This document shows, piece after piece, positions 1-7,076 of a stretch of 7,076 bases of DNA (within the stretch, counting starts at the first letter, position 1; every line of letters begins with the position of its first letter). Made by a program: the position numbers and the translations under genes. The stretch spans positions 1 through 7,076 of the forward strand of contig CAMLLA010000222.1 of assembly GCA_946480525.1 (NCBI GenBank), in the 5' to 3' direction. The notes below the pieces were generated by a model. It saw only the letters and a list, made by a program, of their open reading frames with translations. It did no database searches and was not told where the DNA came from. The stretch is from an uncultured Asticcacaulis sp. Its GTDB lineage: Bacteria; Pseudomonadota; Alphaproteobacteria; Caulobacterales; Caulobacteraceae.

Positions 1-908
1 CAAAGCCAGGCCCGCGCCTGCTGATCACCGCCGGCATCCACGGCGACGAACTGAACGGCATCGCCGTCATCCACACCCTGACAGAGACGATCAGGCCTGA
101 GGATCTGAGCGGCACCATCATCGCCATTCCGGGACTGAACACGCCGGGCCTGCTGCATTCGACGCGCTCGTTCAGCTCGGGCGTCATCGGTTCCAGCGGC
201 GGCGAGAACCTCAACCGCCTGATGCCTGACACCGCCCACCCGGGCGAGCCGACCGGCGGAGCCGCCAAGCGCTACGATCAGCGCATCTGGACGCAGCTGT
301 TCGTCGGCAATGCCGATTTGGCGGTCGATCTCCACACCCAGACCCGTGGCACCACCTATCCGGCTTACATCTTCGCGCAGACGGGCGAGGCGCGCAAAAT
401 GGCCGATGCCCTGAAACCCGACTTCATCAACATGGACCCTGGCATCGCCGGCGCCGTTGAGAACATGCTGAACGTCATCGACGTCCCGTCCGTGACCTAT
501 GAGCTGGGCGGCGGCGAGGTCTTCGATGGACCGCTGATCGACCGAGGCATTACGGGCCTGCGTAACCTTATGGTCGTGCGCGGCATGCTGAAGGGCAAGG
601 CCGAGGCACCCGGCAAGCCGTTTGTGGGCAACGCGGTGGAAAACGTGCTGTCGCCGGTTGGCGGCTGGGCACGCCTCAAGGTGAAGATCGGCGACGACGT
701 CAAGGAAGGCCAGCCCTTGTTCACGGTCCATAACCCGTTTGGCGAAGAACTGGCCACCGTGACGGCGCCCAGGGCCGCGAAGGTCCTGGCCCTGTCGCTC
801 GACCCACGCATGGAGCCCGGCGACTGGGCCGTGCGGCTGATCTGGTGGGACGATGCCCTGCCCTGCAAGGCCGACGGCTGCCCTCCGGGTCCGATCCCCG
901 AGGAATAA
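1..908 (+). CDS. AstE/AspA-family zinc hydrolase, probable beta-Asp-Arg dipeptide hydrolase (CphZ-like), 5' truncated
   Basis: The reading frame is open from base 3 to the TAA at 906-908, giving 301 visible codons; the N-terminus lies left of the window, so the ATG at 222 is internal. It is an M14-type succinylglutamate desuccinylase/aspartoacylase-fold enzyme. Visible zinc ligands are His and Glu of GIHGDELNG (codons 39-41 and 48-50) and His of DLHT (333-335). NLNR follows at about 210-221, and the likely general-base Glu lies in YELGGGE (501-503). A beta-rich C-terminal domain (about 600-850), with a biotinyl-like stretch GDDVKEGQPLF, is normal for the family. Relatives hydrolyse N-succinylglutamate, N-acylaspartate or, in CphZ/AotO, the beta-Asp-Arg dipeptide from cyanophycin. 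I favour CphZ because the gene faces a cyanophycinase/isoaspartyl-peptidase fusion; family membership is near certain, the substrate is inferred. Whether it is cytoplasmic or exported cannot be seen because the N-terminus is missing. Confidence 0.82.
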   Translation, partial: KPGPRLLITAGIHGDELNGIAVIHTLTETIRPEDLSGTIIAIPGLNTPGLLHSTRSFSSGVIGSSGGENLNRLMPDTAHPGEPTGGAAKRYDQRIWTQLFVGNADLAVDLHTQTRGTTYPAYIFAQTGEARKMADALKPDFINMDPGIAGAVENMLNVIDVPSVTYELGGGEVFDGPLIDRGITGLRNLMVVRGMLKGKAEAPGKPFVGNAVENVLSPVGGWARLKVKIGDDVKEGQPLFTVHNPFGEELATVTAPRAAKVLALSLDPRMEPGDWAVRLIWWDDALPCKADGCPPGPIPEE

Positions 909-910
909 TC

Positions 911-948
911 CGGGAGGGGCTGAGGCCTCTACTTCAGCTCTTCTCCCG
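911..948. terminator. Possible terminator hairpin between convergent genes
   Basis: CGGGAG (911-916) pairs with CTCCCG (943-948), and inside it GCTGA (919-923) pairs with TCAGC (934-938). Together they make an 11-pair helix with a small internal loop. It spans the 20-base gap between the two stop codons and the end of the leftward gene. Read leftward it is followed by ATTATT, a weak T-rich tract; read rightward it is followed by A residues, so any intrinsic termination should mainly serve the leftward transcript. Confidence 0.35.
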
Positions 949-2872
949 CAAAAATCCCGGTGCGCGGGGTCGGCGCATCCGAAGACACGGCGCCGCGATA
1001 CATGCCGAGATCGTTGATCGCAAAGACGGCTTTCCCATCCTTGTCCATGGCGATCAGCCCGCCGTCGCCGCCCAGAGCACCAACCGACATGATGGTATTA
1101 TAGGCGGCCTGGTCGATCGTTTCCTTGTTCCAGCGCACACGGTCGCAGACCTGGCGCGCGGCGCTGTCGCGGATGAAGTATTCGCCCGTGCCCGTCGCCG
1201 ACACTGCACAGTCGCCGTCACGCGCATAGGTGCCGGCGCCGATGACGGGTGAGTCGCCGATGCGGCCCCACTTCTTCCCAGTCAGCCCGCCGGTCGACGT
1301 CGCCACCGCCAGATGGCCGTCGGCATCGAGCGCCACGACACCGATCGTGCCATAGAGGTGCGACTGGTCGACACTGGCTAGATTCTTCGCCTTCCAGGCT
1401 TCGAAAGCCTTCTGACGCTCAGGCGTTATGAAGTAGGACGGATCGACCTGTTCAAGCCCCTGTTCGACCGAAAAGGCGTCCGCCCCCTCGCCCGCCAGAA
1501 ACACGTGACGCGTCTTTTCCATCACCTTGCGCGCCAGGCTGATCGGGTTTTTGGTCCGCGTCGTGCCGGCCACGGCGCCGGCCTTCTGCGTTCCGCCATC
1601 CATGATGGCGGCGTCGAGATAGGCCTTGCCGTCGGCGGCGATGACCGCGCCCTTGCCGGCGTTGAACAATGGATCGTCTTCCAGCACGCGCGCCGTGGCT
1701 TCGACGGCATCCAATGACGTGCCGCCCTTGGCCAGAACGGCCTGTCCGGATTCCAGCGCCTTGGTCAGCGAGGCGCGATACTGAGCCTCTTTCTCGGGCG
1801 GCATGTTTTCCCGTTCGATAACGCCCGCCCCGCCATGGACGGCCAGCGACCAGTGCATGCGCTGGGCTACCACGCCGTCCTTGACGTCGTAGGTACGGGT
1901 AAAGGCGGGATTGCCGACCTCAAGTGTTTTCACGTTGAAGGTCGAAGCCTTGCCGATACCGATGACCGAGACGCCGGTAAGGTTCAACGGCTTGCCGGGC
2001 GCAAGGTCGATCGGATCGCCACCCTGGACGAGCCACGCCTTGCCGTCCTTGTTAGTATGGACGCGGGCGGTCCCGTCGGCCTCGACCGTCACGGCGGCTT
2101 CTTCATCGATGCCGAGCCCCACCAGCGGCCTGGCGTAGCGCGCCGTCGGCGAGGCGCGAAGCTTGTTGGACTTCACGACGAAGGCAAACAGACGTCCCAA
2201 CCGGTCGCGCTCCGCGAAATGGCTGTCGGTGACGACCTGCGTCAGCAGCTCGAAATGCAGGAAGTTGTCGACCATGGTGACCGCCGGCCCCAGCGGGTCC
2301 TTAAGAGCTTCCGGCGACGTGACGCTGCCGTCATCCATGGCGCCGTAGGACCAACTGCCCTGGACAGCCAGACCGGCGCTGGTGCCGCCGAGCGGCTTGC
2401 CAGCTTCGACATGGGCGTCGATCGCCTCATTGAGCGGTGTGCCCTTCCACATACGGACATAGCGCGCCTGATCGCCCCCGGCCAGGAAGATGCCATCGGC
2501 CTTCTTCACCGCCTCCAGCAGTTTCGGATCGGACGCGGCCTTGCGGTCGGTGAACAGGAAGGTGCGCACGCTCGTCACACCCTTTACGCCATTGTAAAAC
2601 TCGTCCTGGGATTCCGTGGTGCCTGACGCGCGCAGCACCACCAGATGGCCATTGCCCGCATGATTGACGAACCAGCGAAAGGCGTCATAGGCCCAGTCGC
2701 CGCCGCCCGACATCAATAAGCCGCCCTTGACCTGCCCCGGTGTCGGCTTCGATTCGTCGCCGATGACGAAGGTCTTATAGCCCGGCCCGCCCGTCCAGAC
2801 CTTCGGTTTCGCCTGCGCGGAAACGGCTACGGCCAGCAAACACAGGGTAAGGGTCGCGATCAGACGGCGCAT
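929..2872 (-). CDS. Secreted cyanophycinase-isoaspartyl peptidase fusion (S51 + T2)
   Basis: This 647-residue two-domain hydrolase has a signal peptide, with likely cleavage after AQA at 19-21, so it should act outside the cytoplasm. Residues about 45-265 match cyanophycinase (CphB, peptidase S51): GGDQ at 132-135, nucleophile Ser165 in GGTSAG, and His218 in DSHFAERDRLGRL, keeping the arginines at 222, 224 and 227. Cyanophycinase releases beta-Asp-Arg dipeptides. After a beta-rich stretch, residues about 341-647 form an isoaspartyl peptidase/type III asparaginase: HGGAG at 346-350, FNAGKG at 403-408, autocleavage and catalytic Thr509 in GTIG, Thr527, Arg537, Asp540, then Thr560-Gly561. The spacing equals that of E. 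coli IaaA Thr179, Thr197, Arg207, Asp210, Thr230 and Gly231. This domain would split beta-Asp-Arg to Asp and Arg. The start fits the signal peptide and an AGGAG five bases upstream. Met339 at the junction has no ribosome site, so this is one polypeptide. It diverges from the receptor gene. Domain calls are strong; cyanophycin as substrate is inferred. Confidence 0.93.
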   Translation of the reverse strand: MRRLIATLTLCLLAVAVSAQAKPKVWTGGPGYKTFVIGDESKPTPGQVKGGLLMSGGGDWAYDAFRWFVNHAGNGHLVVLRASGTTESQDEFYNGVKGVTSVRTFLFTDRKAASDPKLLEAVKKADGIFLAGGDQARYVRMWKGTPLNEAIDAHVEAGKPLGGTSAGLAVQGSWSYGAMDDGSVTSPEALKDPLGPAVTMVDNFLHFELLTQVVTDSHFAERDRLGRLFAFVVKSNKLRASPTARYARPLVGLGIDEEAAVTVEADGTARVHTNKDGKAWLVQGGDPIDLAPGKPLNLTGVSVIGIGKASTFNVKTLEVGNPAFTRTYDVKDGVVAQRMHWSLAVHGGAGVIERENMPPEKEAQYRASLTKALESGQAVLAKGGTSLDAVEATARVLEDDPLFNAGKGAVIAADGKAYLDAAIMDGGTQKAGAVAGTTRTKNPISLARKVMEKTRHVFLAGEGADAFSVEQGLEQVDPSYFITPERQKAFEAWKAKNLASVDQSHLYGTIGVVALDADGHLAVATSTGGLTGKKWGRIGDSPVIGAGTYARDGDCAVSATGTGEYFIRDSAARQVCDRVRWNKETIDQAAYNTIMSVGALGGDGGLIAMDKDGKAVFAINDLGMYRGAVSSDAPTPRTGIFAGEELK

Positions 2873-2877
2873 TCGGG

Positions 2878-2882
2878 CTCCT
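2878..2882 (-). promoter_or_regulatory. Ribosome binding site of the fusion hydrolase
   Basis: On the minus strand the bases read AGGAG, five bases before the ATG at 2870-2872. This supports that ATG, which also begins a clean signal peptide. Confidence 0.75.
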
Positions 2883-2909
2883 ATGCGGTATGCAGGTGCA
2901 ACAAATTTA

Positions 2910-2922
2910 CGTCACCTTGACG
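2910..2922. promoter_or_regulatory. Perfect inverted repeat CGTCA-CCT-TGACG, candidate operator
   Basis: Five-base arms at 2910-2914 and 2918-2922 flank a 3-base spacer. The right arm overlaps TTGACG, the candidate rightward -35 element, and the site lies about 38 bases before the leftward start codon, so a bound dimer could affect both genes. Which protein binds it, if any, is unknown. Confidence 0.4.
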
Positions 2923-2960
2923 GAGAATTTATGACACGGCAACAAAATGATTGCGCGTAA

Positions 2961-2976
2961 GGGCAAAATGGTGCCC
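2961..2976 (+). repeat. Short inverted repeat GGGCA-N6-TGCCC
   Basis: Arms at 2961-2965 and 2972-2976 enclose a 6-base loop. It could be a small RNA hairpin in the receptor leader or a regulator half-site pair. Chance cannot be excluded for five-base arms. Confidence 0.3.
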
Positions 2977-2993
2977 GTTTCGGACAAGAAATT

Positions 2994-3038
2994 TCCAGAA
3001 TTAGTCCATTTTGAAACAAAGTCTTCCGGACTTCTGGA
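2994..3038 (+). promoter_or_regulatory. Structured leader upstream of the receptor gene, with alternative hairpins
   Basis: TCCAGA (2994-2999) pairs with TCTGGA (3033-3038), and AGTCC (3003-3007) with GGACT (3028-3032), giving an 11-pair stem with a 3-base bulge and a 20-base loop. A competing small hairpin, AAGTC (3019-3023) with GACTT (3029-3033) around TTCCG, uses the same right-hand bases, so the two folds exclude each other. The element ends 32 bases before the ribosome binding site. It could be an mRNA leader switch, an operator, or chance; I recognise no known riboswitch class. Confidence 0.35.
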
Positions 3039-3069
3039 TACCTCGCAGACGCAACAAAAATCTTTCCCC

Positions 3070-3073
3070 GGAG
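3070..3073 (+). promoter_or_regulatory. Ribosome binding site deciding the receptor start
   Basis: GGAG lies eight bases before the ATG at 3082. It favours that ATG over the in-frame upstream ATG at 2947, which would add 45 residues of non-receptor-like sequence ahead of the signal peptide. Confidence 0.7.
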
Positions 3074-3081
3074 ATTGGACC

Positions 3082-5874
3082 ATGCCGAACAACCGCCTTG
3101 CCAGATATTGCAAGCTGACCCTGCTTATGGGCTGTAGCCTGTACGGGCTTACAGCTACGGCAAGCCTGGCGCAAGACGCCGCGCCTGCGAACGAACCTGT
3201 GACTACGGAAGAAAACGGCGTGGTGACGATTCTCGGCTCGCGAATCCCGCGCGTCCGCAAGGAGGGCCCGGCGCCCGTCACCGTCATCACCTCCGAACAG
3301 ATCAGGGCCGGCGGCTATGCCAATGTGCCGGACGTGCTGAAGACCATCACCCAGAACGGCGGCGAAACCCAGGGCATGCAGTCGGGCAATGCCGCCGACT
3401 ATTCGCCGGGCGCGCAACAGGTCAACCTGCGCGGCCTGGGCCCCAACCATACGCTCGTGATGGTCAATGGCCGCCGCGTCGCCGACTATCCCATGCCCTA
3501 TAACGGCGACAGCAATTTCACCGATATCTCCAACATCCCGCTCGGCATGGTCGACGCCATAGAAGTCCTGAGCGGTTCGGCCTCGGCCATCTACGGTTCG
3601 GACGCCTTGGCCGGCGTCGTCAACTTCAAGCTCAAGCAGCGTGCCGACGGCACGACACTCGATTATCGTTACGGCTGGACCGAACAGGGCGGCGGCGCGT
3701 CGCACCGTTTCAATGCCTCGTCGGGCTTCGACTTCGGCAAGCTGCACGGCGTCTTCGGCGGCGAGCTGATGTTCCAGGACCCGGTCTACGGCTATCAGCG
3801 CAAGCGCCAGGATTCGACCGCCGACGCGCCCGATCCTGACTATCAGATGGGCGTGACCAACTGGCAGCGCGTCGATTATGACGTCTACGCCATCGACGCC
3901 ACCTCGGCCGATTGCGCGCGCACGGCCAGCACGAACGGCGGCACGACCTCGCTGCAGATCGATCCCTACTATGGCGACGGCGAAGACATCCTGGGCGCCT
4001 ACTGCGGATCGCAGACCGCCATCGGTTACAAGACCGTCGTTTCCGAACGCCAAAGCGCCAACTTCGTCGGGTCCTTCACCTATGACCTGAACGACGACAC
4101 CCACCTCTTCCTCGACGCCCAGGTCGGTGTCAGCAAGCTGAAGCTGCTCAAGCGTCCCCTGTCGTGGGGCTATCAGGACGAAACCGGTAACGACGTCGGC
4201 GACTTCTATAACGCCCATTCGTCGCGCGAGGACACCGACAACTGGTATCGCATCTTCACGCCGGAAGAGATGGGCGGGCTGGAACCGGCCATGCGCCGCG
4301 TCGAATCGACGACCTATACGATCACGCCCGGCATCCGCGGCACCTTCGGCGCCGACGGTAAGTGGAATTACGAAGCCGCCATCAGCGCCAGCGTCTACAA
4401 CGCCGAAGTCACCTTCCCGCTGATCAATGTCGAAAAGGCCAATGCGCTGTTCCTCGGGCCGCAGCTCGGCATGGATACCGACGACGCATATCTCGGCGAA
4501 GACGACGGCTACGGCCTGCCGGTGTTCAACGCCGACCCGACGCGTTTCTATACGCCGCTGACGCCGACCGAGTTCGCCTCGATCCAGGAAGACTCGGTCT
4601 ATAAGCCGCGCTCGTCGGTCGTCGAAGCCTCGCTGGAAATCGGCACGCGCGACCTGTTCCAGATGCCCGCAGGCCCCGTGGGCTTCAGCGCCATCATCGA
4701 GGCCGGCCGCCAGGACTATAACCAGGGCACCGACCCGAAGGCGACCTCACCCTACTATTTCAGCTGGGTGGACTTCACCGCCAAGGGCCACCGCACGCAT
4801 TCGGCCGCCGCCGTCGAATTCTCAGTACCCTTGCTGTCCACGCTGCAATCGAGCGTGGCCGCGCGCTACGACAGCTTCGATTATGCCGGCCACAGCGTTG
4901 GGGAAGCGACCTATAACCTGGGCCTTGAATACCGCCCGCTCGACACCCTGCTGTTCCGCGCCGCCTGGGGCACGGGCTTCCGCGCGCCGGATCTGAACTA
5001 CGTCTATCGCGGCACGGGCTTCGAAGAAGGCCGTGCGCCCGACTATTACCAGTGTATCCAGGACGGCGACTATCCGGACGACTGCGGCCGTGGCCCGCGC
5101 ATCCGCGTCCGCACCGGCGGCAATCTGGACCTCGAGCCGGAAACGTCCGAGTCCTTCAATACCGGCGTCGTCTGGGCGCCAAGCCGTGCCTTCGACATCA
5201 GCATCGACTACTTCAAGATCGACATGAAGGGCCAGGTCGAGGACCTGCTGGTTTCGAACCTGACGCGCACCGAAGGCGAATGCCGCGGCGGGCTCCAGGG
5301 CATCGATACGCCCACCTGCCAGGACGCCATCGCCCGCGTCACCCGCGACAGCGACGGCGACATCACCCAGGTCTTCGTCAGCCCGATCAACGTCTCGGAA
5401 GAAACCACATCCGGCATCGACCTGTCGGCCCACGCCCGCCTGGAAACGCCGATCGGCAAGCTAACCCTGACCGGCAGCTATACGCATGTGATCGACCACG
5501 ACTATGTGCGCTATGTCGGCGATCCGACGATCGACAAGCTGGCCAACGATTCCAGCTATTACATCCCGCGCGACAAGGCCTCGGTCAGCGCCAACCTGGT
5601 GTCGGGCGCGTGGACCCTCAACATCGACGGCAATCACCTGAGCCGCCTGCCGAACTACGATGAAAATGCGTGGGTCAAGCCCTACACCACCTATAACGGT
5701 TCGGTGCAGTACAAGGTCAATGACAAGGTCCGCATCTCCCTGGCCATTACCAACCTGTTCGACACCCGGCCGCCGGTCGATGAGACCTGGGTCAGCTATC
5801 CCTACTATAATTCCAGCTGGTACGACGGCCTCGGCCGCTCGGGCTTCCTGCAGGTGACGTACAAGCTTGACTGA
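3082..5874 (+). CDS. TonB-dependent outer-membrane receptor, probable importer of cyanophycin-derived or other peptides
   Basis: This 930-residue protein is an energy-coupled outer-membrane transporter. A signal peptide (1-30, likely cut after SLA) is followed by a TonB-box-like segment, GVVTILGSRIPR at 46-57. The plug domain runs from about 62 to 188 with VNLRGLGPNHTLVMVNGRR at 114-132 and EVLSGSASAIYGSDALAGVVNF at 161-182. The rest is a 22-strand-type barrel, with GTGFRAPDLNY at 630-640, the late-barrel NLDLEPETSESFNTG at 681-695, and TNLFDTRPP at 890-898 near the end. It ends YKLD rather than in an aromatic residue. Six cysteines remain after export and fall in near pairs (278/308, 658/668, 734/746), suggesting disulfides in surface loops. 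Several predicted loops are rich in Asp/Glu, for example 465-477. The gene diverges from the exported cyanophycinase fusion, so its ligand is plausibly the polymer, its fragments or beta-Asp-Arg. That is inference; receptor identity is certain, ligand is not. Confidence 0.95.
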   Translation: MPNNRLARYCKLTLLMGCSLYGLTATASLAQDAAPANEPVTTEENGVVTILGSRIPRVRKEGPAPVTVITSEQIRAGGYANVPDVLKTITQNGGETQGMQSGNAADYSPGAQQVNLRGLGPNHTLVMVNGRRVADYPMPYNGDSNFTDISNIPLGMVDAIEVLSGSASAIYGSDALAGVVNFKLKQRADGTTLDYRYGWTEQGGGASHRFNASSGFDFGKLHGVFGGELMFQDPVYGYQRKRQDSTADAPDPDYQMGVTNWQRVDYDVYAIDATSADCARTASTNGGTTSLQIDPYYGDGEDILGAYCGSQTAIGYKTVVSERQSANFVGSFTYDLNDDTHLFLDAQVGVSKLKLLKRPLSWGYQDETGNDVGDFYNAHSSREDTDNWYRIFTPEEMGGLEPAMRRVESTTYTITPGIRGTFGADGKWNYEAAISASVYNAEVTFPLINVEKANALFLGPQLGMDTDDAYLGEDDGYGLPVFNADPTRFYTPLTPTEFASIQEDSVYKPRSSVVEASLEIGTRDLFQMPAGPVGFSAIIEAGRQDYNQGTDPKATSPYYFSWVDFTAKGHRTHSAAAVEFSVPLLSTLQSSVAARYDSFDYAGHSVGEATYNLGLEYRPLDTLLFRAAWGTGFRAPDLNYVYRGTGFEEGRAPDYYQCIQDGDYPDDCGRGPRIRVRTGGNLDLEPETSESFNTGVVWAPSRAFDISIDYFKIDMKGQVEDLLVSNLTRTEGECRGGLQGIDTPTCQDAIARVTRDSDGDITQVFVSPINVSEETTSGIDLSAHARLETPIGKLTLTGSYTHVIDHDYVRYVGDPTIDKLANDSSYYIPRDKASVSANLVSGAWTLNIDGNHLSRLPNYDENAWVKPYTTYNGSVQYKVNDKVRISLAITNLFDTRPPVDETWVSYPYYNSSWYDGLGRSGFLQVTYKLD

Positions 5875-6106: not shown

Positions 6107-6478
6107 CTATGAAAGGTTGAAGTTGCCGGTATAGGTAACCTTGTCACCCGGCTTGTTCTTGGTCAGATCGACGACCACCAGTTTCTCGGCGATCTTTTTT
6201 ACAGCGGCGCCAAAGTCGTATCCCGGCGCACTTTCTTCTATGACTTCACACGCGCCCAGCCGTCCGGTGTCGAGCACTGTGCACAGGACAGTGCCCCACC
6301 CTCTGGCTTCGGCTTCGGCGGCCAGTTGCGGATAATAGTCCCTGTTACTTGGAAGCAGCTTGCTGACCGTAGCCTTGGGGTATTCCTCCGCCCTCGCGAC
6401 CGCAGGCGCGCCCGCCAGCGCGATGGCCACTACACACAGAAATACCTGTCGCGTCTTCGATCCGTTGATCCCGGTCAT
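6107..6478 (-). CDS. Small exported TonB C-terminal-domain protein
   Basis: This 123-residue protein has an N-terminal signal peptide with a hydrophobic core at about 11-26 and likely cleavage after ARA (28-30). Nearly all of the rest resembles the TonB C-terminal domain of energy transducers: YPQLAAEAEARGWGTVLC at 49-66, then GRLGACEVI at 72-80, then the PGYDFGAAVKK segment at 85-95. Cys66 and Cys77 sit where Caulobacterales TonB-like proteins often carry a cysteine pair. It lacks the proline-rich periplasmic spacer and, if the signal is cleaved, the membrane anchor of a working TonB. It may therefore be a periplasmic partner or decoy for receptor TonB boxes rather than an energy transducer. 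I chose the ATG at 6476-6478 over the in-frame ATG at 6514 (135 residues) because the shorter form starts a normal signal peptide and has AAGGGG eight bases upstream. It lies 56 bases behind the AraC-type gene on the same strand and could share its transcript. No function is assigned. Confidence 0.75.
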   Translation of the reverse strand: MTGINGSKTRQVFLCVVAIALAGAPAVARAEEYPKATVSKLLPSNRDYYPQLAAEAEARGWGTVLCTVLDTGRLGACEVIEESAPGYDFGAAVKKIAEKLVVVDLTKNKPGDKVTYTGNFNLS

Positions 6479-6486
6479 GGCCCATT

Positions 6487-6492
6487 CCCCTT
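6487..6492 (-). promoter_or_regulatory. Ribosome binding site of the small TonB-domain protein
   Basis: The minus strand reads AAGGGG, eight bases before the ATG at 6476-6478. The alternative ATG at 6512-6514 has only a distant AGGA. Confidence 0.5.
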
Positions 6493-6534
6493 TTGTGTTA
6501 GTTCCAGCGATCATCTGGTAGCAAATCCTATACG

Positions 6535-7076
6535 TTAACCCATCGGCAGCAACCGCGTATAAACCGCGTGCTCCGGAGCCTCGCTAACCACGCGCTTGCG
6601 CCGGCTTAAGTAGTCGCCGGGCGTGTGGCCGGTGAAGGACTTGAATTCCTTGTTGAAATGCGCCTGGTCAGAAAACAGGAAGTCCTGCGCCACCGCTGTC
6701 CAGCGCATGGGACGCGCCCCGTCGATGACGTCGATGACCTCCTGAAGACGATAGAGGCGCGCCAGCCGTTTGGGTGGGACGCCGACGACGGCGTTGAACA
6801 GGGAGATCACGTGCTTGGGCGTGAAATCGGGCATGGCCAGGACCTGCTCCCCCTCCGCCGTGGCGTGGCCGAGTTGCAGAGCCTGGAGCGCCGGGGCGAT
6901 CTTTTCGAACTTGGCCGAGCGGTCGATGCGCGCGGTCAAAAGACGTTCCAGTAGGATGAACCGCGCCTGAGCGCCGCCCGCATCAAACAGGCGCTCGCGC
7001 AACTCCCCGGTAAAGCGGCCCCAAAGGTCGTCGAGCGACACAAGCTGGTTGTGTATGAGGTTGATGTCCACGCCCA
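6535..7076 (-). CDS. AraC-family transcriptional regulator, 5' truncated
   Basis: The frame is open to the right edge and ends at TAA (6535-6537); about 180 codons are visible, and the N-terminal sensing domain is mostly outside. The GTG at 7069-7071 is probably internal. Counting from that GTG, residues about 8-50 (LVSLDDLWG, then ELRERLFDAG, then FILLERLL) resemble the end of the effector domain in AraC proteins whose N-terminal part is often labelled DUF6597. The paired helix-turn-helix unit follows: FTPKHVISLFNAVVGVPPKR at 83-102 and WTAVAQDFLFSDQAHFNKEF at 124-143, then the family-typical GHTPGDYLSRR at 148-158. It should bind DNA as a transcription activator or repressor. Its targets are unknown. 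It may control the small gene just downstream, or the receptor/hydrolase pair; it is separated from these by the convergent spacer, so a link is only a guess. Confidence 0.9.
   Translation of the reverse strand, partial: GVDINLIHNQLVSLDDLWGRFTGELRERLFDAGGAQARFILLERLLTARIDRSAKFEKIAPALQALQLGHATAEGEQVLAMPDFTPKHVISLFNAVVGVPPKRLARLYRLQEVIDVIDGARPMRWTAVAQDFLFSDQAHFNKEFKSFTGHTPGDYLSRRKRVVSEAPEHAVYTRLLPMG

Follow-up and report, generated by a model that had tools for sequence, protein, structure and literature searches.

Cyanophycin is the nitrogen store of cyanobacteria, and EcAIII, a T2-family isoaspartyl peptidase (IaaA), is a cytoplasmic enzyme. In the available portions of PMC10206079, the cyanophycin-degrading enzymes are treated as separate, often clustered genes, as in the cyanophycin utilization locus of Ben Hania et al. 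cited there, which combines a cyanophycinase, iadA and a transporter. Secreted cyanophycinases are represented by CphEal of Pseudomonas alcaligenes and CphE of P. anguilliseptica, which, by their published residues, are S51 proteins with a signal peptide and a Ser/His/Glu triad (PMC3235067, available in part). Here we describe a 7,076-nucleotide stretch from an uncultured Asticcacaulis sp. (assembly GCA_946480525.1, contig CAMLLA010000222.1), hereafter the window, in which one gene encodes a signal peptide, a CphE-type cyanophycinase-like S51 domain and an isoaspartyl peptidase-like T2 domain, next to a divergent TonB-dependent receptor gene. Unlike CphE, which is a separate protein ending at beta-Asp-Arg, this fusion adds T2 in the same frame; unlike IaaA, its T2 part is exported and joined behind S51. 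The locus resembles that of Ben Hania et al. in placing cyanophycinase-type and isoaspartyl dipeptidase-type genes beside a transport gene, but T2 stands in for IadA, a single exported protein covers both steps and a TonB receptor is the transport part. No description of the fusion was found in the titles and abstract openings of the open literature searched, a sample that mostly excludes subscription papers and supports no claim of absence from print, and databases already contain the S51 plus T2 architecture, often named isoaspartyl peptidase. The parts and the pathway are known; as far as that literature shows, their combination into an exported fusion with a dedicated TonB receptor is a new variation on them.

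Domains and active sites of the exported fusion

The original prediction, made from the DNA letters, had read both steps of cyanophycin breakdown into one exported 647-residue chain at 929..2872 (minus strand), and the coordinates, strand and length of that frame are correct. Two domains in series exceeded their curated Pfam cut-offs, namely PF03575 Peptidase_S51 at residues 116-173 (E 1.9e-9) and PF01112 Asparaginase_2 at residues 341-632 (E 5.2e-100). The predicted signal peptide also held up when read by eye, as a Sec-type one (MRRLIATLTLCLLAVAVSAQA); it spans residues 1-21 (2810..2872), with a helix at residues 2-17 modelled at low predicted local distance difference test (pLDDT) score. 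Behind it, the S51 domain with its C-terminal beta extension covers residues about 30-335 (1868..2785) and the T2 domain residues 339-643 (944..1858), all on the minus strand. The whole-chain structure model had a mean pLDDT of 89.5 and a predicted template modelling score of 0.83. The top 50 Foldseek matches were all T2-type; a second look yielded the S51 match, and structure comparison placed the fold of this half closer to cyanophycinase than to dipeptidase E.

In the S51 half, the predicted catalytic residues Ser165 (codon 2378..2380) and His218 (2219..2221; both minus strand) aligned with CphB Ser132 and His174, and Glu257 aligned with CphB Glu201, completing a Ser165-His218-Glu257 triad. 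The half also retains Gln101, Asp172, Arg178, Arg180 and Arg183 of the CphB pocket, as Gln135, Asp216, Arg222, Arg224 and Arg227; these five are critical in CphB, and CphEal shares them (PMC3235067, same portions). Of 7,996 scored homologues, 7,331 had E ≤ 0.001; we examined the best 120, and every one of them was fused, with both domains present (120/120). Among these listed proteins, Ser165, His218 and the five pocket residues were invariant (120/120) and Glu257 was present in 118. The 120 proteins listed for an S51 query, two of which also bear T2, had Glu257 in 117 cases and the other triad and pocket residues in all 120. Ser217 replaces CphB Gln173, and we had considered this replacement as counter-evidence; it was dropped, since the corresponding residue of CphEal is also a hydroxyl residue, Thr223 (PMC3235067, same portions). 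At position 217, the listed fused homologues have Ser 51 times and Thr 69 times, against 94 and 26 times in the proteins listed for the S51 query. Over residues 4-335, the S51 half aligned with a plasmid-encoded protein of Priestia megaterium that carries the annotation cyanophycinase (31% identity, 159 bits) and whose gene sits before aspA; a characterised CphE of B. megaterium exists (PMC3235067, same portions), its equivalence to the plasmid protein not being established.

The T2 half resembles IaaA in fold, in its Gly-Thr processing site and in its further catalytic residues. Solved beta chains of IaaA-type enzymes, including E. coli IaaA, aligned from residue 509, so that Thr509 equals their residue 1, and Gly508, Thr509, Thr527, Arg537, Asp540 and Thr560, which include the three threonines named in advance as catalytic, were each kept in 120/120 listed fused homologues. 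T2-family precursors cleave themselves before the nucleophile. Because the site is present (Gly508-Thr509, codons 1346..1351, minus strand), preceded by a loop at 499-506 with pLDDT <50, two mature chains are expected, consisting of S51-T2alpha (about 22-508) and T2beta (509-647). The idea of a single chain thus applies to the exported frame with its two catalytically complete domains, while the mature protein would probably be two chains. Across the two halves, comparison of the window with three Asticcacaulis loci gave 0.07-0.20 nonsynonymous (dN) and 0.87-1.33 synonymous (dS) substitutions per site, and the S51 half is under purifying selection. Together, the residues and folds support two complete catalytic domains, of the kinds that perform steps 1 and 2 of cyanophycin breakdown, in one exported frame, and both are very probably active as peptidases.

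A module found fused and split beside a TonB receptor

Using tblastn of the window genes on 24 fetched loci and two plasmid loci, we found 23 loci, including the window, with an S51 at least 44% identical. S51 was fused to T2 in 12 of them, followed by a separate T2 gene in 8, and without a nearby T2 in 3 (L004, L098 and L099; the genome of L004 bears the T2 half elsewhere, at 66%). Left out of this count were L107 and L109, whose S51 is at 33-34%, and L108 and L110, which have T2 only. Besides the window, the fused form occurred in 9 fetched loci (L001-L003, L091-L095 and L100) and on two Novosphingobium megaplasmids. The fusion is one form of a two-gene module whose members also occur as separate genes. 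In all 8 split pairs, S51 and T2 share a strand, the T2 homology begins 100-216 bp beyond the S51 stop, and a hydrophobic N-terminus of the export type can be recognised by eye on both halves; the fused form has no inner signal. Given these N-termini on both split halves, both degradation steps seem destined for outside the cytoplasm.

The existence of split neighbouring S51 and T2 genes in relatives would also fit two genes joined through a sequencing error, the artefact that might have undone the original prediction. That explanation has practically no probability left and is refuted by full-length single-frame matches in three Asticcacaulis genomes, five further Caulobacterales, L100 and two plasmid records, as well as by the two-domain state of every listed homologue. 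The search for both domains in one chain thus bore out the predicted architecture and located it taxonomically in Caulobacterales, on the Novosphingobium megaplasmids and in L100; source names among the homologues listed for the fusion and S51 queries include Asticcacaulis, Terricaulis, Sphingopyxis, Novosphingobium, Steroidobacteraceae, Luteimonas and Pseudoxanthomonas. Genome searches, which scored the best few candidates per genome, found full-length matches in 6/249 Caulobacterales genomes and adjacent halves in 2 (E ≤ 1e-60). Across the class Alphaproteobacteria, 39/385 genomes matched (E ≤ 1e-30); the match was full-length in the centre genome alone and confined to the T2 part in the remaining 38. 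An S51-half query matched 11/398 Pseudomonadota genomes (E ≤ 1e-20), comprising 3 fused, 7 adjacent and 1 more distant S51.

We further compared the fused and split states in a 22-row S51 tree, with 10 rows fused and 12 split. Twenty rows came from fetched loci and one from the window; the last was P0123, which is encoded on a 1.05 Mb contig and was entered by protein alone. This tree implied at least 3 changes between fused and split, 2 of them forced by starred branches, and a constraint holding the fused rows together was rejected (approximately unbiased test, p 6.2e-5; L100 on a long branch). The T2 tree grouped fused L100 with split L101 (97/92), apart from the Asticcacaulis fusions; its 36 rows include L013 from a wrong frame (branch length 10), and it was used only for this grouping. 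A 100-row fasttree tree with 10 changes was not used, as its split rows include short-contig proteins that are perhaps truncated.

The divergent receptor gene (3082..5874, plus strand; PF07715 and PF00593) encodes 930 residues from an ATG at 3082, its open frame reaching back to 2947, and is separated from the fusion by an intergenic region (2873..3081) that is presumably a shared control region. A receptor 43-86% identical to it, and divergent to S51, was present in 21/22 relatives; none was found in L101, where the contig ends about 1 kb from S51. S51, T2 and receptor occur together in 18/22 relatives plus the window, the exceptions being L004, L098 and L099 for T2 and L101 for the receptor. 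In 18/21 the 5' ends of receptor and S51 are 122-424 bp apart; the gap widens to about 1.0 kb in L095 and to some 2.3 kb in L100 and L102. The relatives' loci also contain two other receptor matches, with identities of 26 and 31%. Both degradation steps are thus clustered with a transport gene, as in the cyanophycin utilization locus.

Proposed route, natural substrate and alternatives

On the basis of the domains, residues, predicted folds, co-localisation, export N-termini of the split halves and the synthetase result in 13 genomes given below, we consider this to be, with fair probability, a Gram-negative locus for scavenging cyanophycin or short cyanophycin-like beta-Asp oligomers. The candidate TonB receptor would bind polymer pieces and carry them into the periplasm, where the Sec-exported fusion would act. 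There the S51 half, as a CphE-type serine exopeptidase (Ser165-His218-Glu257), would cut the aspartate backbone to release beta-Asp-Arg, and the T2 half, with Thr509 presumably freed by self-cleavage, would split the isopeptide bond to Asp and Arg, possibly with some hand-over between the two sites. The original prediction had one protein turning extracellular polymer into amino acids. The enzyme types fit both steps; as for the place, Sec export together with a conserved TonB receptor makes the periplasm somewhat likelier than the medium. A broader proposal can be made only tentatively, namely a "selfish" cyanophycin module of Alpha- and Gammaproteobacteria, in which a dedicated TonB receptor would feed a periplasmic CphE-IaaA fusion; this protein, joined or separated on more than one occasion, would cleave itself and yield Asp and Arg.

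If this is true, a set of heterotrophic Proteobacteria can convert a cyanobacterial nitrogen store into free Asp and Arg through one protein, served by an uptake receptor of its own, which would change which organisms count as cyanophycin consumers. The locus would also provide a candidate for an outer-membrane receptor of a beta-Asp polymer, as well as a ready enzyme for producing Arg and Asp from cyanophycin. Since fused and split forms exist side by side, what is gained by linking the two steps can be tested directly. Because the fusion falls below the cyanophycinase cut-off and such proteins are named isoaspartyl peptidase, the module may be under-counted among cyanophycin users.

Cyanophycin synthetase (TIGR02068) passed its cut-off in 0/13 relatives' genomes of unstated completeness, the window's own genome lying outside this sample; weaker matches occurred in all 13 and in all 14 control genomes, one control being over the cut-off. 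Cyanophycinase (TIGR02069) passed in 2/15 genomes, G595 and G764. G595 carries the passing protein about 10 kb from its split S51/T2 pair on one contig, within a compact cluster (L115:1931-8530, minus strand) of a T2 gene, the cyanophycinase, a gene that by eye looks permease-like and a second TonB receptor, possibly a second, more classical cyanophycin locus. This co-occurrence points to a cyanophycin context, though the module does not have to be a functional duplicate of the cyanophycinase. The passing protein of G764 (L116:6899-7774, plus strand) has GLGAG in place of the GTSAG of active cyanophycinases and DQGG for DxHF, and looks like a naturally inactive cyanophycinase homologue.

Several observations weigh against cyanophycin as the substrate. 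The fusion scored below the TIGR02069 equivalog cut-off (94.5 versus 126.6 bits) and below that of NF007589, the PRK10226 beta-aspartyl-peptidase equivalog (273.6 versus 567 bits), and is filed under neither; the Priestia protein was likewise below the former (75.4 bits) and three separate T2 genes from split loci were below the latter (288.8-328.1 bits). Identity to solved cyanophycinases is only about 26-27%. The structure 7uqv shares the fold and much of the pocket with the S51 half, yet its PDB title is "pseudo-CphB", and its paper reportedly describes inactivity; with so close a structural relative, motifs alone are insufficient proof of cyanophycin activity. Moreover, as G595 holds both the module and an over-cut-off cyanophycinase, their substrates may differ, and the IaaA enzymes of cyanophycin clusters take many beta-Asp dipeptides (PMC10206079, available portions).

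On a rival reading, the same enzyme types and kind of locus would serve another substrate, with S51 trimming and T2 removing beta-Asp from isoaspartyl or Asp-rich peptides of aged protein, or from a receptor-imported isopeptide-bonded natural product. T2 promiscuity and G595 fit such a role, as do the Amidohydro_3 genes that adjoin the receptor in several fused loci and would suit general peptide or N-acyl amino acid use. In L100, genes for an extracytoplasmic function (ECF) sigma factor and FecR lie between receptor and S51 (the same clusters recur in L102), an arrangement resembling the peptide-uptake systems of lasso-peptide isopeptidase loci. We nevertheless regard this explanation as unlikely, since the S51 pocket retains the CphB/CphE residues throughout the listed homologues, Glu257 excepted, and the fold resembles that of cyanophycinase more closely than that of dipeptidase E; cyanophycin or its oligomers are the probable natural substrate. 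Far more doubtful still is an S51 half that is a pseudo-cyanophycinase inactive on polymer, serving binding or folding, with T2 alone working as an exported beta-Asp peptidase or asparaginase. The precedent of 7uqv, by its title and reported inactivity, and the TIGR02069 score speak for it, but the nucleophile and histidine are invariant in both sets of listed homologues, S51 occurs without a nearby T2 in three loci, and purifying selection acts on it.

Neighbouring genes and other architectures

Next to the fusion in the window, a protein of the succinylglutamate desuccinylase/aspartoacylase type (3-908, plus strand; PF24827) shares its superfamily with the cyanophycin dipeptide hydrolase CphZ, of which we take 8ein and 8eip to be structures. 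A relative was found in 1/24 other loci (L003:840-1967, minus strand), placed differently relative to the fusion; this full-length protein looks exported (by eye) and scored higher to DoeB (6twm, 55.4 bits), its nearest solved structure, than to 8ein (29.7 bits), and an assignment of the neighbour as CphZ is not supported. That assignment had been considered because genes annotated as succinylglutamate desuccinylase/aspartoacylase have proved to be dipeptide hydrolases (PMC10206079, available portions). Beyond the receptor lie, both on the minus strand, a small exported protein resembling TonB_C, with a score under the Pfam cut-off (6107-6514), and an AraC-type regulator (6535-7074); neither had a tblastn match in the 24 other loci.

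Directly after T2, an Lrp/AsnC-type regulator, which may sense an amino acid product, was found in fused L002 (11944-12396) and split L096 (10373-10873) by family search and in split L097 (10487-10990) by cluster, all on the plus strand. DgcN/DgcA genes adjoin L096 and, by cluster, occur in two split loci; they were not used for our reading. In one Caulobacterales genome, a frame predicted to encode a zinc carboxypeptidase M14 domain extends up to the 3' end of the fusion (L091:5765-8704, minus strand). Another exported S51 architecture was present in L107 (8871-10352, minus strand), where a PPC pre-peptidase domain precedes S51 in one protein.
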